Below, one piece after another: positions 6,834 to 31,751 of a stretch of 60,249 nucleotides of DNA. Each line of letters begins with the position of its first letter. Position 1 is the first letter of the stretch. Under the pieces are notes generated by a model. That model saw only the letters and a list, made by a program, of their open reading frames with translations, searched no databases and was not told the DNA's origin. Source of the DNA: an uncultured Pelagibacteraceae bacterium (lineage in GTDB: Bacteria > Pseudomonadota > Alphaproteobacteria > Pelagibacterales > Pelagibacteraceae); the NCBI GenBank assembly GCA_902538525.1, contig CACBFA010000001.1, positions 1-60,249 of the forward strand, given 5' to 3'. The position numbers were made by a program, and so were the translations under genes.

Positions 6834-7895
6834 ATGAAAGCACAGGTTTTACATAAGTACGACCCAGAAATGAAAGAGGGAACTTGGGTCACAAATCAAG
6901 AAATGCCTGATCCAAAAATAGAAAAGGCATCTGATGTAATAGTTAAAATTGGTGCAGCTGGTGTTTGTAGAACTGATCTACACATAATTGAAGGAGTTTG
7001 GAAACATATTCAAGATCCAGATGGAAAACTACTTCCTTGTGTTATGGGTCATGAAAATGCTGGTTGGATAGAAGATGTTGGAAAAGATGTTACAGAATTT
7101 AAAAAGGGAGATCCAGTAATTTTGCACCCTCTTATATCTGGAACTGATGGGACGTGTCTTGACTGTAGACGAGGTAACGATATGCACGCCGCCGCTGGAG
7201 CTTTCCCGGGGTTAAGTATTAAAGAAGGTGGATATTCAGAACTTTTAAAAACAAGTGTGAGAAATTTAATTAAATTGCCAACAGTATTGGCACCTAAAGA
7301 TGTTGCTCCATTTTCTGATGCTGGTTTAACAGCTTATAGAGTTGTGAAAAAAGCTACTAGACATTTACTTCCTGGTCAAAGTTGTACAATCATAGGTGCA
7401 GGAGGTTTAGGACATATTGCTATTCAATGTTTAAAAGCAATGTGTGCAGCAGATATAATTATTGTAGAGAAATCAGAAAAAGCTCTTAAACATGCAATGG
7501 AGTTGGGCGGAGACCACGGAGTTTTGATTGATGGAAACGAAATTGAAAAAGTTCAAGAGTTAACTAAGGGAAAAGGTTCTGAGGCTGTAATAGATTTTGT
7601 TGGTGAAAAAGGATCGACTGCAATGGGAATTCAAATGACTTCAAATGGGGGCTTTTATTATATTGTGGGTTATGGAGAGGAGATCAAATCTTTAGCCGTA
7701 GATTTAATAATATCTGAAAAAACAATAGTCGGAAATTTAGTAGGAACGTGGTCTGAATTATATGAACTGATGGAATTAGCTGATAGAGGAAAAGTCAAGC
7801 TATCTATGCAGGAATATAAATTAGATGATGCTAACAAAGCGCTACATGATCTTAATGATGGAAAAGTCAAAGGTCGTGCAGTGTTAGTTCCATAA
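6834..7895 (+). CDS. Zinc-dependent NAD(P) alcohol dehydrogenase (MDR family)
   Basis: The 353-residue medium-chain dehydrogenase has catalytic zinc ligands in GVCRTDLH (Cys45) and MGHENAGWIEDVG (His73, Glu74) and the nucleotide site IIGAGGLGHIAIQ. The lobe that normally carries four structural-zinc cysteines keeps only two (Cys108 and Cys111, with Asp105 and His118 nearby), so that site may be altered or lost. It is preceded by a good ribosome binding site (AGAGAGGA) and followed 24 bases later by the ABC binding-protein gene. That suggests it oxidises the imported alcohol or polyol, or an early metabolite of it. The true substrate is unknown. Confidence 0.8.
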   Translation: MKAQVLHKYDPEMKEGTWVTNQEMPDPKIEKASDVIVKIGAAGVCRTDLHIIEGVWKHIQDPDGKLLPCVMGHENAGWIEDVGKDVTEFKKGDPVILHPLISGTDGTCLDCRRGNDMHAAAGAFPGLSIKEGGYSELLKTSVRNLIKLPTVLAPKDVAPFSDAGLTAYRVVKKATRHLLPGQSCTIIGAGGLGHIAIQCLKAMCAADIIIVEKSEKALKHAMELGGDHGVLIDGNEIEKVQELTKGKGSEAVIDFVGEKGSTAMGIQMTSNGGFYYIVGYGEEIKSLAVDLIISEKTIVGNLVGTWSELYELMELADRGKVKLSMQEYKLDDANKALHDLNDGKVKGRAVLVP

Positions 7896-26779: not shown

Positions 26780-27343
26780 ATGTTTAAATTCCCTTTATTA
26801 CTTTTTTTATTAATATTGCCAACAAAACTTAGCTCAGAAATAAATAATGAGTACTATGATAACAATTATTTTCATATTGGAAAAATGAACTCTTACAATA
26901 GTGAGTTCACTCTATATTTTAAAACACGGAAGAAAGCTATTTTAGCAAAGGGAGAATTTTCTAATTATATTAATGATTTTCCACAGGACTTATACTTATA
27001 TGATAAAAATTTAAATAAAGATTACCCTTTAATTTCATATGACTGGTTTCCAAAAAAAGTTAAAAAAATATCAAAAAAATATAATTACCCACTTTTCCCA
27101 GAGGATTTTGCTTACTATTTATTAAATGACAACAACACTTTAATTTTGATAAGTGCAAAAAAAAATTTTAATGAAAATTTAAAATACGACATAAAAAATA
27201 ATAAGCTAGAAATTGCTAAGACTTCTGGAAAATTAAATTTTATTATCTCTTCTTATGCTGAAAACTGTGGTTATAAATCTCTAAAAAATAATTTTGAGTG
27301 CAATATCTATAAACCTTTAATTTCTAAAAATTTGCTTAATTAA
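26780..27343 (+). CDS. Hypothetical secreted protein
   Basis: The 187-residue protein has a hydrophobic N-terminus that reads as a signal peptide (MFKFPLLLFLLILPTKLSS). The remainder is rich in Asn, Lys, Tyr and Phe, with no motif I recognise. Two cysteines near the C-terminus (ENCGYK and FECNIY) could form one disulfide in the periplasm. The codon pattern matches its neighbours. The stop region overlaps the convergent ftsY gene by 8 bases. Function unknown. Confidence 0.6.
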   Translation: MFKFPLLLFLLILPTKLSSEINNEYYDNNYFHIGKMNSYNSEFTLYFKTRKKAILAKGEFSNYINDFPQDLYLYDKNLNKDYPLISYDWFPKKVKKISKKYNYPLFPEDFAYYLLNDNNTLILISAKKNFNENLKYDIKNNKLEIAKTSGKLNFIISSYAENCGYKSLKNNFECNIYKPLISKNLLN

Positions 27344-28253
27344 CTTGGGTAAAAGCATTTGCAAACTTCTCAGCTTCAAATATTTGTAAGTCATCCTCTT
27401 TTTCTCCAAGTCCGAGACCAACAATAGGTACTTTATATTTCTTTGAAATCGCAATCAATATTCCGCCTTTTGCAGTTCCATCAAGTTTTGTCATTATGAT
27501 GCCTGTAATTGGAAGTAATTTATTAAATTGTTCGAGTTGATTAATTATGTTTTGTCCCGACGTTGCATCTAAAACTAAAATAACCTCGTGAGGTGCTGTT
27601 TCATCACTTTTTTTAATTACATTTCCTATTTTTTTTAATTCATCCATTAAATTCTTTTTATTTTGCAATCTTCCTGCCGTGTCTACTATTACTTGATTTA
27701 TGTTTTGATTTTGAGCTATTTCCATTGCTTTAAAAGCAACTGAAGCCGGATCTGAACCAGGATCTGATTTTACAATTTTAGCATCAACCCTGTTAGCCCA
27801 TTCTTCTAATTGATCAATAGCAGCTGCTCTAAATGTATCGCATGCTGAAAAAAGAACTTTATTATTATTTTGTATAAATATTTTTCCTAATTTTCCAATA
27901 GTAGTTGTCTTACCAACTCCATTAACACCTGAAACTAATATTATATTTGTCTTTTCCTTTTTTAAAAAAAAATCTTTTTTTTCTAGGGGTGTCATTAGTT
28001 CTAAAATATAATTATTAAGTATTTCGAAAACTTCCTTGATTGGATCATTTTTAGGATCAATCTTTTTTTGAGCAATTATAGATTTTATCTCTGATGCTGC
28101 ATCTATGCCCACATCTGAGCCAATCAAGAATTCTTCTATTTTATCAAGAGTTGCATCGTCAATTTCTTTCTTAACTATTATTTCTTTAAGGCCTGATGCT
28201 ATATTGCTTGCACTTCTTTTAAATCCGATTTTAAATTTTTCAAAAATACCCAT
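27336..28253 (-). CDS. ftsY: Signal recognition particle receptor FtsY
   Basis: The 305-residue SRP-type GTPase has a short N-domain followed by the G-domain: P-loop GVNGVGKTTT, DTFRAAA, DTAGRLQNK and TKLDGTAKGG. It docks the Ffh-RNA-ribosome complex at the membrane. The acidic, membrane-binding A-domain of E. coli FtsY is absent; only a short basic amphipathic N-terminus (MGIFEKFKIGFKR) precedes the NG domain, as in other reduced alphaproteobacteria. The start overlaps the dapF stop by one base. Its partner ffh lies 1 kb away on the other strand. Confidence 0.95.
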   Translation of the reverse strand: MGIFEKFKIGFKRSASNIASGLKEIIVKKEIDDATLDKIEEFLIGSDVGIDAASEIKSIIAQKKIDPKNDPIKEVFEILNNYILELMTPLEKKDFFLKKEKTNIILVSGVNGVGKTTTIGKLGKIFIQNNNKVLFSACDTFRAAAIDQLEEWANRVDAKIVKSDPGSDPASVAFKAMEIAQNQNINQVIVDTAGRLQNKKNLMDELKKIGNVIKKSDETAPHEVILVLDATSGQNIINQLEQFNKLLPITGIIMTKLDGTAKGGILIAISKKYKVPIVGLGLGEKEDDLQIFEAEKFANAFTQVN

Positions 28254-29077
28254 TATATTTTGATATTAATCTTTTCAATTTCAGATACAGGACCTCTCAT
28301 TTTTATATTTAATTCATTGTCAATTTGAATATTTAAAATTCCTGTTGAAAATTCTATTTTTGAATTACTGTTTTGTAGTTGATTTAAATTAGCTGCGACT
28401 GCTGTTGCACATGCTGCAGTCCCGCAAGCTTTTGTTAAACCTGCACCCCTCTCCCAAACTTTAATTTTGTAATGTTGATCACTAATTTTCTGAGCTATTG
28501 TGACATTGCATTTCTCAGGGAAAACTTCATGATTTTCTATTAATGGTCCATATTTTTTTAAATTTATTTTTTCTATATCCTCGCAAAAATATATTACATG
28601 AGGGTTACCAACATTCACTGCAATACCACCATTAATTTTATTTCCGTCAATATCAATCATACCAAGTGATAGATTTTTAGTATCAAGATTTTTACTTAAA
28701 GGAATTTTGTTCCACTCTAAATTTGGAGTTCCAATTATTGTTTCAACATCTTTATTATTAAGAACTTTAGATTTTAATATTTTTGAGGATACCGAAATTT
28801 CAATTTCTTTTTTATTTTTTTCAATACTTAGTAAATAAGCAACACATCTAGTTCCATTTCCACATGCATCTGAGCGGCTTCCATCCGAGTTAAAAAAAGC
28901 AACACCAGCATCAGCTTTTTGACTTTTGTTTATGTAGATCAACTGATCGCACCCTATGAAATCTCTGTCACAAATTTTTAAGATTTGGTCATTTGATAAG
29001 TTTAAACTATTTATTCTCTGATCAATAATAACAAAGTCGTTACCTAATCCATCCATTTTAAATGCTTCAAATTCCAT
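28253..29077 (-). CDS. dapF: Diaminopimelate epimerase
   Basis: The 274-residue protein has the two catalytic cysteines in typical settings: DACGNGTRC (Cys72) and KACGTAAC (Cys218). It interconverts LL- and meso-diaminopimelate for lysine and peptidoglycan synthesis in the cytoplasm. The start MEFEAFKMDGLGNDF matches the family N-terminus. It is transcribed away from ffh and coupled to ftsY by a one-base overlap. Confidence 0.95.
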   Translation of the reverse strand: MEFEAFKMDGLGNDFVIIDQRINSLNLSNDQILKICDRDFIGCDQLIYINKSQKADAGVAFFNSDGSRSDACGNGTRCVAYLLSIEKNKKEIEISVSSKILKSKVLNNKDVETIIGTPNLEWNKIPLSKNLDTKNLSLGMIDIDGNKINGGIAVNVGNPHVIYFCEDIEKINLKKYGPLIENHEVFPEKCNVTIAQKISDQHYKIKVWERGAGLTKACGTAACATAVAANLNQLQNSNSKIEFSTGILNIQIDNELNIKMRGPVSEIEKINIKI

Positions 29078-29100
29078 ATAAATAATACTTAACTTATTTA

Positions 29101-29126
29101 TTGACTTTTTGAACCTCTAATATAAT
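29101..29126 (+). promoter_or_regulatory. Candidate promoter for the ffh leader/small RNA
   Basis: TTGACT (29101-29106) and TATAAT (29121-29126) are present but only 14 bases apart. Using TAATTT (29123-29128) as the -10 gives 16 bases. Either would start RNA near 29131-29135, right at the beginning of the GC-rich foldable segment. Confidence 0.5.
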
Positions 29127-29131
29127 TTACG

Positions 29132-29231
29132 CGCACTTCCGCAAAATACAGCAATTTGCGGTGTCTTTGGAAACAAAGAGATCGACACCAGTCAGCGAGG
29201 GTTCGCCCACTGGTGCGATACTTGCTGTGCG
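29132..29231 (+). ncRNA. Candidate structured RNA or leader directly upstream of ffh
   Basis: These 100 bases contain 53 G or C, far above the surrounding AT-rich DNA. They can form CGCAC/GTGCG at the ends (29132-29136 with 29227-29231); a hairpin CCGCAAA/TTTGCGG (29139-29145 with 29155-29161); TGTC/GACA (29162-29165 with 29184-29187) topped by TTTG-GAAA-CAAA (29166-29177); and CACCAGT/ACTGGTG (29186-29192 with 29209-29215) topped by GGG-TTCG-CCC. The loop bases ACAGCAA (29148-29154) also match TTGCTGT (29222-29228), giving a possible pseudoknot or switch. It ends 5 bases before the ffh ATG. The position suggests SRP RNA or an ffh control element, but the conserved domain IV of bacterial 4.5S RNA (CAGG, GGAAG and AGCAGC pieces) is not visible. 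Confidence 0.6.
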
Positions 29232-29236
29232 AAATT

Positions 29237-30595
29237 ATGTTTGAAAATTTAACTAATAAATTTGAAGAAATTTTTTCTTCATTAAAAAAAGCTCCTTCTC
29301 TTGATGAAAAGCAAGTTGACGAGGGTTTAAAAGGTATAAGGTTGGCTTTGTTAGAAGCCGATGTTTCATTAGACGTAGTTAAGGAGTTTATTAGTAGAGT
29401 TAAGCCTAAAGCGCTAGGTCAGGAAATTATAAGATCAACTTCTCCCGGGGATATGGTTGTAAAAATCGTTTATGACGAAATAGTATCTTTTTTAGGTGAT
29501 AAGAATTCTGAAATCTCCCTTAATGCTGTCCCTCCAGTTCCAATCATGTTAGTTGGATTGCAAGGTTCAGGAAAAACCACAACAACCTCAAAATTAGCAA
29601 AATTTTTAGAAAAAAATAATAAGAAAAAAGTAATGATGGCTAGTTTAGACGTTTACAGACCTGCCGCGCAAGAGCAATTGAGAATTTTGGGTGAACAAAA
29701 TAATATTGAAACTTTGCCAATTATAGAGGGCCAGCTTCCAGCTGATATTTGTAGAAGAGCTTTAAGTGCTGCAAATTTAAATGGTTGTGAAGTAGTTTTA
29801 TTTGATACCGCTGGAAGAACACAAATAGATTTTCAAATGATGAATGAAATCAAACAAATTGAAACTATTATTAATCCTGCAGAAACTATACTAGTAGCAG
29901 ATTCTCTAACAGGTCAAGTTGCTGCTAATGTAGCCAAGGAATTTAAAAATACAGTAAATTTGAGCGGTATTATACTTACAAGAGCAGATGGAGATGGAAG
30001 AGGTGGAGCAGCATTGAGTATGAAATATGTTGCTGAAGTACCCATAAAGTTTCTTGGTGTTGGAGAAAAAATTGAGAATTTTGAAGTTTTCCATCCTGAT
30101 CGAATTGCAAATAGAATTTTGGGAATGGGAGATATCGTTTCCTTAGTTGAAAAAGCTTCAGAAGATTTAGATCAAGAAAATTTAAAGAAAACAGAAGAGA
30201 AACTTAAAAAAGGTCAATTCTCGATGGAAGATTATCTTTCTCAATTACGTCAAATGAAAAAGATGGGTGGAATAGAAGGCATAATGTCATTTCTCCCTGG
30301 AGTTTCAAAAATTAAATCACAAATGGACCAATCAGGAATAGATGAAAAAATTATAACTCAAAATGAAGCTGTTATTTTATCAATGACAAAGCAAGAAAGA
30401 GAAAATCCTAAAATTATAAATGGATCAAGAAAAAAAAGAATTGCTAATGGCTCAGGTACAGACATTGCCACTATCAATAAGTTGTTAAAACAATTTAAGA
30501 TGATGTCAGAAATGATGAAAAAAATGTCTAAAGGAAACATGAAAGGAATGGCGGATAAAGGGATCCCGCCTGAACTATTTAATCAATTAAAATAA
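29237..30595 (+). CDS. ffh: Signal recognition particle protein Ffh
   Basis: The 452-residue protein has an N-domain, then a G-domain with P-loop GLQGSGKTTT, DVYRPAAQEQL, DTAGRTQID, TRADGDGRGGAAL, and a methionine-rich C-terminal M-domain (LRQMKKMGG, FKMMSEMMKKMSKGNMKG) that holds signal peptides and SRP RNA. The start was put at 29237 (MFENLTNKFEEIF), the usual Ffh N-terminus. The frame stays open upstream to 29156, but those 27 codons lie in the structured GC-rich segment and have no Ffh character. It starts a long plus-strand gene run and is followed 14 bases later by rpsP. Confidence 0.96.
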   Translation: MFENLTNKFEEIFSSLKKAPSLDEKQVDEGLKGIRLALLEADVSLDVVKEFISRVKPKALGQEIIRSTSPGDMVVKIVYDEIVSFLGDKNSEISLNAVPPVPIMLVGLQGSGKTTTTSKLAKFLEKNNKKKVMMASLDVYRPAAQEQLRILGEQNNIETLPIIEGQLPADICRRALSAANLNGCEVVLFDTAGRTQIDFQMMNEIKQIETIINPAETILVADSLTGQVAANVAKEFKNTVNLSGIILTRADGDGRGGAALSMKYVAEVPIKFLGVGEKIENFEVFHPDRIANRILGMGDIVSLVEKASEDLDQENLKKTEEKLKKGQFSMEDYLSQLRQMKKMGGIEGIMSFLPGVSKIKSQMDQSGIDEKIITQNEAVILSMTKQERENPKIINGSRKKRIANGSGTDIATINKLLKQFKMMSEMMKKMSKGNMKGMADKGIPPELFNQLK

Positions 30596-30609: not shown

Positions 30610-31056
30610 ATGTTAAAAATGAGACTATCAATGGGAGGTACTAAAAAAAGGCCAGTATATAAAATTGTTGTGGCTGATAGTAGATTTCCAAGAGACGGAA
30701 GGTTTATAGAAAAATTAGGTTTTTATAATCCGTTATTACCAAAGGATAAAAAGGAAAGAATTGGCTTAGATTCTGAGCGAATTAAATATTGGTTAGGTCA
30801 AGGAGCTCAGCCAACAACAAGAGTTGCAAGGTTATTGGGAGAAAACGATATAATGCCAATGCCTGAAAAAGGAAACAATCCTCAAAAAGCAATTCCTAAA
30901 AAAGATAGAAAAAAAGCTGACGAAGGTGGAGAAGCGAAACCAGAAGGAGATGCATCTAAACCAGCAGAAGCACCTAAGGAAGAAGCTAAGCCAGCAGAAG
31001 CACCTAAGGAAGAAGCTAAACCAGCAGAAGCATCTAAGGAAGAAGAAAAAAAATAA
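30610..31056 (+). CDS. rpsP: 30S ribosomal protein S16 with a repetitive C-terminal tail
   Basis: The core (residues 1 to about 85) is ordinary S16: [35 protein letters not shown], and [12 protein letters not shown]. The protein reaches 148 residues because of a Lys/Glu/Pro/Ala-rich tail containing three near-identical ten-residue repeats ([10 protein letters not shown] type). S16 normally ends near residue 80-90. AAAGGAG at 30594-30600 serves the start at 30610. The stop overlaps trmD by one base (TAATG). No rimM gene lies between rpsP and trmD. Confidence 0.95.
30961..31053 (+). repeat. Three tandem 30-bp units in the rpsP tail
   Basis: Units at 30961-30990 and 30991-31020 are identical except for the last base. 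A third, diverged unit follows from 31021. Each unit encodes [10 protein letters not shown]. The near identity at DNA level points to recent expansion or ongoing slippage. Confidence 0.9.
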
Positions 31057-31751
31057 TGTTAGAAGCTCGTATATTCACACTCTATCCAGATTTTTTTCCA
31101 GGTTATTTAGGTCAAGGTATTTTTGGTAAAGCACTATCAGAGAATAAATGGAAAATAGATACTGTGGATATAAGAGAGTATGCATTTGATAAACATAAAA
31201 CTGTTGATGACACTCCCTATGGAGGAGGTGAAGGTATGTTAATGAAAGCAGATGTATTAGCAAAATCAATAGATAAGAATGTTAAAGATGGTGAAAAGAT
31301 TATTTATCTAAGTCCGAAGGGTAAGTTGTTCAATCATCAATTAGCAAAACAACTATCTCAAGAAAAAACAATAAATATAATTTGTGGACACTTTGAAGGA
31401 GTTGATGAAAGATTATTAAAAACAAGAAATATTGAGGAAGTAAGTATAGGAGACTTTGTTTTATCTGGAGGTGAAGGAGCTTCATTTGTAATTCTTGATG
31501 CAATTTTAAGATTTATTCCTGGTATTCTTGGCAATACAAATTCAGCTAAAGAAGAAAGTTTTGAAAACGGACTTTTAGAGTATCCTCAATTTACAAAACC
31601 TCAAATATGGGAGGAAAAAAGTGTTCCAGATGTGCTATTATCAGGCGATCACGCCAAAATTAAAGACTGGCGTTTATCTCAATCTGAGGCTATAACACGC
31701 GACCGAAGACCAGATTTGTGGCAATTATATAAAAAGGCTAAAGAGAATTAA
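31056..31751 (+). CDS. trmD: tRNA (guanine37-N1)-methyltransferase TrmD
   Basis: The 231-residue SPOUT methyltransferase has the N-terminal [12 protein letters not shown], the conserved [14 protein letters not shown], the knot segment [14 protein letters not shown], and [12 protein letters not shown]. It methylates G37 of tRNAs reading CNN codons to prevent frameshifting. It is coupled to rpsP by a one-base overlap and followed by rplS after one base, the usual order apart from the absent rimM. Confidence 0.95.

Follow-up and report, generated by a model that had tools for sequence, protein, structure and literature searches.

A three-hairpin RNA of family RF01793 before the SAR11 ffh-rpsP-trmD-rplS genes as a candidate S16-sensing leader

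We analyzed a stretch of 60,249 nt of DNA from an uncultured Pelagibacteraceae bacterium, referred to as the window, with a focus on the gap between two divergent gene groups. The minus strand carries dapF (28253–29077; Pfam PF01678), a neighbour that is also retained in the SRP-less order described below, and ftsY (27336–28253; SRP54 GTPase and SRP54_N domains, no M domain). On the plus strand the operon order is ffh (29237–30595; SRP54, SRP54_N and SRP_SPB domains), rpsP for ribosomal protein S16, the proposed source of the ligand (30610–31056; PF00886, 100.1 bits), trmD (31056–31751; PF01746) and rplS for ribosomal protein L19 (31753–32334; PF01245). The genes rpsP and trmD (30610–31751) overlap by one base, and rimM, commonly found between the two, is missing. 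The C-terminus of S16 (about 30850–31056) is a low-complexity repeat (10 protein letters, not shown), and many SAR11 contigs end at about the distance of this repeat from the RNA motif, which suggests that assemblies break there.

Between dapF and ffh, 53 of the 100 bases at positions 29132–29231 are G or C, compared with 31.8% GC across the window. A preliminary description of this DNA had named the region the strongest GC island; the base count holds, but the maximum is shared in a tie with 7112–7113. This second GC-rich spot (7112–7213, 53 of 100 bases) contains no Rfam match over the cut-off. As had also been described, the region follows a TATAAT (29121–29126) and ends five bases before the ffh ATG at 29237. 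Together with TTGACT at 29101–29106 the TATAAT makes up a promoter-like element on the plus strand (29101–29126) with a gap of 14 nt, from which we infer a transcription start. A simple sigma-70 promoter scan reported no site upstream of the RNA in the window, because the hexamers are only 14 nt apart. Leaving out five loci, we observed TTGAC 25–130 nt upstream of the Rfam match in 150 of 151 loci, compared with 344 of 3020 windows placed at random in these loci. A terminator was looked for in the window and none was found. The 112-nt strand folds with −41.9 kcal/mol (z = −4.28), and none of 200 dinucleotide shuffles was as good.

An Rfam scan of the whole window gave a single match over the cut-off, namely RF01793, ‘ffh sRNA’, at 29171–29223 on the plus strand (58.2 bits, cut-off 35 bits). 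Like other members of this family, the RNA has a bulged hairpin with two conserved cytosines, which form a C.C mismatch at 29193/29208, and it lies in front of ffh. In its passages on the ffh motif, Meyer 2009 (PMC2704228) describes the motif in the ffh-dapF gap of Pelagibacter and in Rhodobacterales, Sphingomonadales and Rhizobiales, draws it as a single bulged hairpin and leaves the function open. The RNA, the site and the conserved cytosines are the same here; unlike the published single hairpin before ffh, the RNA analyzed here has two further hairpins, and in one order it stands before rpsP with no ffh found. Because of the score and this earlier description the RNA is not a new class: it is already known and has been catalogued since 2009. 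The Rfam search that the preliminary description had proposed therefore led to a known family, and its suggestion of a new riboswitch class falls. RF01793 also appears in a Mesorhizobium list (PMC5596092), and an RNA-seq paper on Bartonella names an ‘ffH leader RNA’ in its list of expressed RNAs (PMC7717549). Within the open-access literature, with subscription journals outside the coverage, the terms ‘ffh motif’ and ‘ffh leader’ occurred only in Meyer 2009 and PMC7717549, and none of the matches listed ties the RF01793 RNA to S16.

Length and site had first suggested a divergent SRP RNA, since the bacterial small SRP RNA (RF00169) is likewise about 100 nt long, GC-rich and tied to ffh by gene order. 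This identity of 29132–29231 is rejected: with E values of up to 10 allowed, the SRP families gave no match at 29080–29260, in agreement with the earlier remark that the domain IV motifs are absent, and a normal SRP RNA, for which a check had been proposed, is present in the same genome on another contig (G000:C13:3725-3821; RF00169, 42.2 bits against a cut-off of 40 bits).

RF01793 is widespread in the order of the window (SAR11), where 268 of 297 genomes searched gave a match and 29 showed no motif; all of 30 diverse SAR11 members, picked among genomes already matching, contain it. In a class-wide search 106 of 385 genomes matched, 81 of them over the family cut-off, so that the RNA cannot be a universal control of the operon. 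We took 80 of the 101 non-SAR11 matches of this search with their surroundings for further comparison.

Next, we compared the copies with respect to structure. The hairpin P2 pairs 29139–29145 (CCGCAAA) with 29155–29161 (UUUGCGG), P3 pairs 29162–29169 with 29174–29181 around a GAAA loop, and P4, which is the published ffh motif, pairs 29186–29198 with 29203–29215. The RF01793 model lacks P2 and draws the 3′ strand of P3 unpaired, so both hairpins are proposed here from covariation, while P4 has the Rfam match in addition. A P4 covariance model gave one match in the window (47.6 bits). Of the two tetraloops in the preliminary description the GAAA loop was read correctly, but TTCG is not apical, neither in the fold nor in the conserved structure: a GGGU loop is closed there by GCGA paired to UCGC. 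The SAR11 alignment that had been called for was made from sequence alone with 34 chosen copies (from 49 distinct copies at 62 loci), and it contains compensatory changes in all three hairpins. In P2, 2 of 7 pairs are changed on both sides and 94.1% of cells are paired; for P3 the values are 6 of 8 pairs and 85.9%, with one pair (G.G in the window) unpaired in 20 of 34 copies. Over P2, P3 and P4 together 90.6% of cells are paired, compared with 83.9% in shuffled alignments and 35–46% with partners slid, and 88 cells are changed on both sides compared with 29.2 in the shuffles. Two results from SAR11 point the other way, as the 24 further pair types lie below the shuffled mean of 26.4, and 30 of 500 shuffles equal the number of pairs changed on both sides.

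The comparison was extended outside SAR11. A covariance model built from the SAR11 copies (R1) finds 88 of 88 non-SAR11 loci with E of at most 2.7e-4, a set made up of 75 of the 80 fetched regions and 13 of the 14 loci from the order of genome G345 discussed below; four of these matches cover P4 only. In other alphaproteobacteria 7 of 7 pairs of P2 (85.5% paired) and 8 of 8 pairs of P3 (88.0% paired) are changed on both sides. Among 83 distinct other copies this applies to 25 of 27 pairs and to 450 cells, compared with 142.8 shuffled and 65–112 slid, in an alignment that was fitted to the structure and is biased towards it. For P4, 46 copies in a plain MAFFT alignment gave the same picture (10 of 12 pairs and 93 cells changed on both sides, compared with 27.3 cells shuffled). 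The C.C mismatch of P4 is present in 34 of 34 SAR11 and 82 of 83 other copies (116 of 117 distinct). It adjoins position 29194/29207, which is A.C in the window and in all 34 SAR11 copies; outside SAR11 we observed A.C in 35 copies, C-G in 16, A.A in 15, G-U in 7, U-A in 6, G-C in 2 and two others. As judged from these alignments, the conserved RNA structure is formed by three covarying hairpins and is larger than the published one.

The preliminary description had further noted a seven-base match between loop and tail, and this match is exact: ACAGCAA in the P2 loop (29148–29154) is complementary to UUGCUGU in the tail (29222–29228). The best fold contains no pseudoknot, since such pairings lie outside what the folding program can represent; there the tail is paired with the 5′ end, so that two pairings compete for part of the tail. 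The longest match of loop and tail has a mean of 3.88 in the 34 SAR11 copies, compared with 3.38 for permuted partners (reached in 0 of 300 permutations). When duplex energy was scored instead, 18 of 300 permutations were as good, and 12 of 300 for 75 non-SAR11 copies; since related sequences are not independent, these statistics are weak. On visual inspection, the second SAR11 family and some genera of the first family have lost this pairing. The complementarity thus exists in the window, but it is restricted to part of the lineage, marginal by energy and poorly conserved, and we rejected the pseudoknot as a general feature. A closing stem of the 5′ end with the tail (P1) was not supported by partner permutation (196 and 155 of 300, also 50 of 300), so that it is at most a conserved pairing without covariation; pairing of flank and tail does exceed that of shuffled sequence, with 0 of 200 for each of the two sets. 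From the sequences compared, pseudoknot and P1 are possible local details outside the conserved core.

To which genes the RNA belongs can be seen from its surroundings. Outside the order of G345 the next gene is ffh in 62 of 62 SAR11 loci and in 75 of 77 other loci, i.e. in 137 of 139, and the remaining two are contig ends. Among loci with at least 1490 nt of sequence, rpsP follows downstream in 59 of 60 SAR11 loci, 72 of 73 others and 9 of 9 from the order of G345 (three duplicates were left out of the next-gene and downstream counts). Within 6 kb of the RNA we found trmD in 66 and rplS in 64 of 70 loci. No locus seen separates trmD from rpsP. The gene rplS is detached in genome G613, where it lies inverted at a distance of about 9.4 kb, and it was not found within 19.9 kb of the RNA in G577. 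Between rpsP and trmD, rimM is missing in the window and in locus L216 and present in L132. One exception is genome G524 (L118/L211), where the ffh match stops near residue 137, no rpsP follows within 19.9 kb and S16 was not found elsewhere in the genome; this is perhaps an assembly fault through a faulty contig join. Hence, as for r-protein leaders in general, a structured RNA lies at the 5′ end of an r-protein operon. The distance from the end of the Rfam match to the start codon is 14–35 nt in SAR11 (to ffh) and reaches 285 nt elsewhere, so that blocking of the ribosome site alone cannot account for all loci.

A different arrangement was observed in the order of G345, a group of small-genome marine alphaproteobacteria. 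In 14 of 14 loci of family f51, the only family seen in this order (to which L132 and L192–L205 belong), the RNA stands directly before rpsP without ffh, at 30–37 nt, with the beginning of the protein match as the reference point. For the first four genomes of the order there was no Ffh or FtsY match, whereas most others in the same test had both. In the full set of 18 genomes no SRP54-type GTPase (PF00448) scored over the cut-off, while 14 of 14 controls were positive; a single sub-threshold SRP54 match occurred in G679 (20.5 against 22.7 bits, profile positions 3–43). SRP RNA (RF00169) was likewise found in 0 of 18 genomes and in 11 of 14 controls. SecY was detected in 14 of the 18 genomes, and so was RF01793; the four genomes in which RF01793 is missing include one that is 96% complete. 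For the six genomes with at least 90% completeness the counts are 0 for the SRP54 GTPase, 0 for SRP RNA, 6 for SecY and 5 for RF01793. In P2 and P4 of this order four pairs and 16 cells are changed on both sides, compared with 5.4 cells shuffled (145 of 500 shuffles reach four pairs, 0 of 500 reach 16 cells); P3 is displaced by one base in the plain alignment and was therefore omitted here. As both-side changes continue, the RNA is under selection where no Ffh was found.

A search with TrmD gave as nearest named records three single-cell genomes of ‘uncultured PS1 clade bacterium’ (67, 67 and 56% identity). In two of these (L214 and L216) the motif lies just before rpsP and equals the motifs of L199 and L193 over the compared stretch; the third contig begins inside trmD. 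The order in L216 is dapF (divergent), motif, rpsP, trmD, rplS, which is the SAR11 order minus ftsY and ffh. SRP54 was not found in any of the three PS1 clade records (L214–L216), for which genome completeness is not stated. From these genome searches the whole SRP pathway appears to have been lost in the order of G345. Such a loss is unreported among the literature matches listed, which cover open access, with subscription journals outside the coverage. The arrangement suggests that the RNA tracks the ribosomal operon and not Ffh.

If Ffh is not needed, the targets shared by all arrangements are S16, TrmD and L19. Taking the three covarying hairpins seen in the sequences together with their position and their persistence before rpsP where Ffh, FtsY and SRP RNA were not detected, the best explanation, which we hold at slightly better than even, would be a 5′ leader of the ffh-rpsP-trmD-rplS mRNA that senses a product of the operon, most likely S16. 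The RNA is probably regulatory, and its output would be translational. We propose S16 as the ligand rather than TrmD or L19 because rplS can be detached, rimM is variable, rpsP is the nearest gene in the SRP-less order and S16 is a primary 16S-binding protein, a trait common among r-protein regulators. Two reviews add to this reasoning. In its account of r-protein operons, a 2024 review (PMC10931766) treats the trmD operon (rpsP-rimM-trmD-rplS) as a rare r-protein operon of unknown regulation, and PMC7247131 includes an S16 leader proposed before rpsP-rimM in Flavobacteria. The flavobacterial leader resembles the present one in lying upstream of rpsP with proposed autoregulation by S16; it belongs to another phylum, and the likeness concerns site and proposed control.

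In the proposed mechanism, transcription from the conserved promoter just upstream would produce the leader of the ffh-rpsP-trmD-rplS mRNA, which would fold into P2, P3 and P4 and gauge the supply of a protein made from the operon, most likely S16. S16 in excess of free 16S rRNA would bind the leader, probably at the P4 C.C mismatch, and binding would lower expression of the operon; Ffh would be a passenger gene under leader control and not the regulator. Mimicry of rRNA was looked for in E. coli and not found. The full model had no match in E. coli 16S and 23S rRNA, and the P4 model reached at best 9.2 bits (E = 0.84) in the E. coli rrn operon; the only spot that shares letters of the P4 5′ strand is 16S 1400–1419 (5.9 bits, E = 6.8), and both matches are taken as chance. 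A likeness to the rRNA site is marked for only some r-protein leaders in the relevant part of PMC7247131.

The ligand might instead be TrmD, L19 or some r-protein that is not made from this operon, which we regard as unlikely. This would agree with the usual presence of trmD and rplS in the operon and with the remark in PMC7247131, in its treatment of multi-gene leaders, that the ligand is often not the product of the first gene; however, rplS is detached in two genomes, and rpsP is nearest where SRP is missing. RimM is also an unlikely ligand, given its varying presence between rpsP and trmD. Lower still we place repression of ffh by Ffh or SRP RNA bound to the leader, although ffh is the next gene in nearly all loci outside the SRP-less order and P4 presumably has a short GUCAG and mismatches in common with SRP domain IV of 4.5S RNA. 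The A in GUCAG varies outside SAR11, and 14 of 18 genomes keep the RNA beside rpsP with neither an SRP54 GTPase over the cut-off nor an SRP RNA in any of the 18. Meyer 2009 (PMC2704228), which also considered such control, sees in its passages on the motif no resemblance to the Ffh-bound part of 4.5S RNA. The preliminary description had thus recognized what looks like a conserved, covarying cis-leader, but control by Ffh or SRP RNA is argued against by the order in which the RNA is kept before rpsP and neither Ffh nor FtsY nor SRP RNA was detected.

A small-molecule riboswitch or another sensor that is not protein-controlled seems very improbable: the compact three-hairpin RNA with a conserved mismatch near the start codon in SAR11 would suit it, but conservation is concentrated in one helix, few unpaired bases are invariant, and the genes concern ribosomes and secretion and form no pathway. 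Marginally less credible again is a structured 5′ UTR that stabilizes the mRNA or exposes the start site, or else an sRNA processed to stand alone (Rfam types RF01793 as ‘Gene; sRNA’). In its favour, Meyer 2009 mentions a metatranscriptome transcript in its motif section and the Bartonella list contains the expressed RNA; against it, a C.C mismatch kept in nearly all distinct copies exceeds what stability needs. A leader retained for mRNA stability would otherwise give the same picture as an S16 leader.

The RNA therefore belongs to a known but unexplained family and lies before an essential operon of an ocean bacterium; what is new is the three-hairpin structure and the evidence for the rpsP operon rather than Ffh. 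In the widest reading, to which we give a little less than an even chance, RF01793 would be misnamed and would be an S16-controlled three-hairpin leader across much of the Alphaproteobacteria that couples production of the SRP protein to that of ribosomes; in addition, Ffh, FtsY and SRP RNA would have been lost, but the leader kept, in an order of free-living marine alphaproteobacteria. To our knowledge, SRP is widely held to be near-universal, and an order in which no SRP component was detected is surprising in its own right. Since 2009 the RNA would then have been named after a gene to which it probably does not respond. If the proposal is true, the control of the trmD operon would be solved in alphaproteobacteria, and the capacity for secretion, through Ffh, would be tied to ribosome supply.
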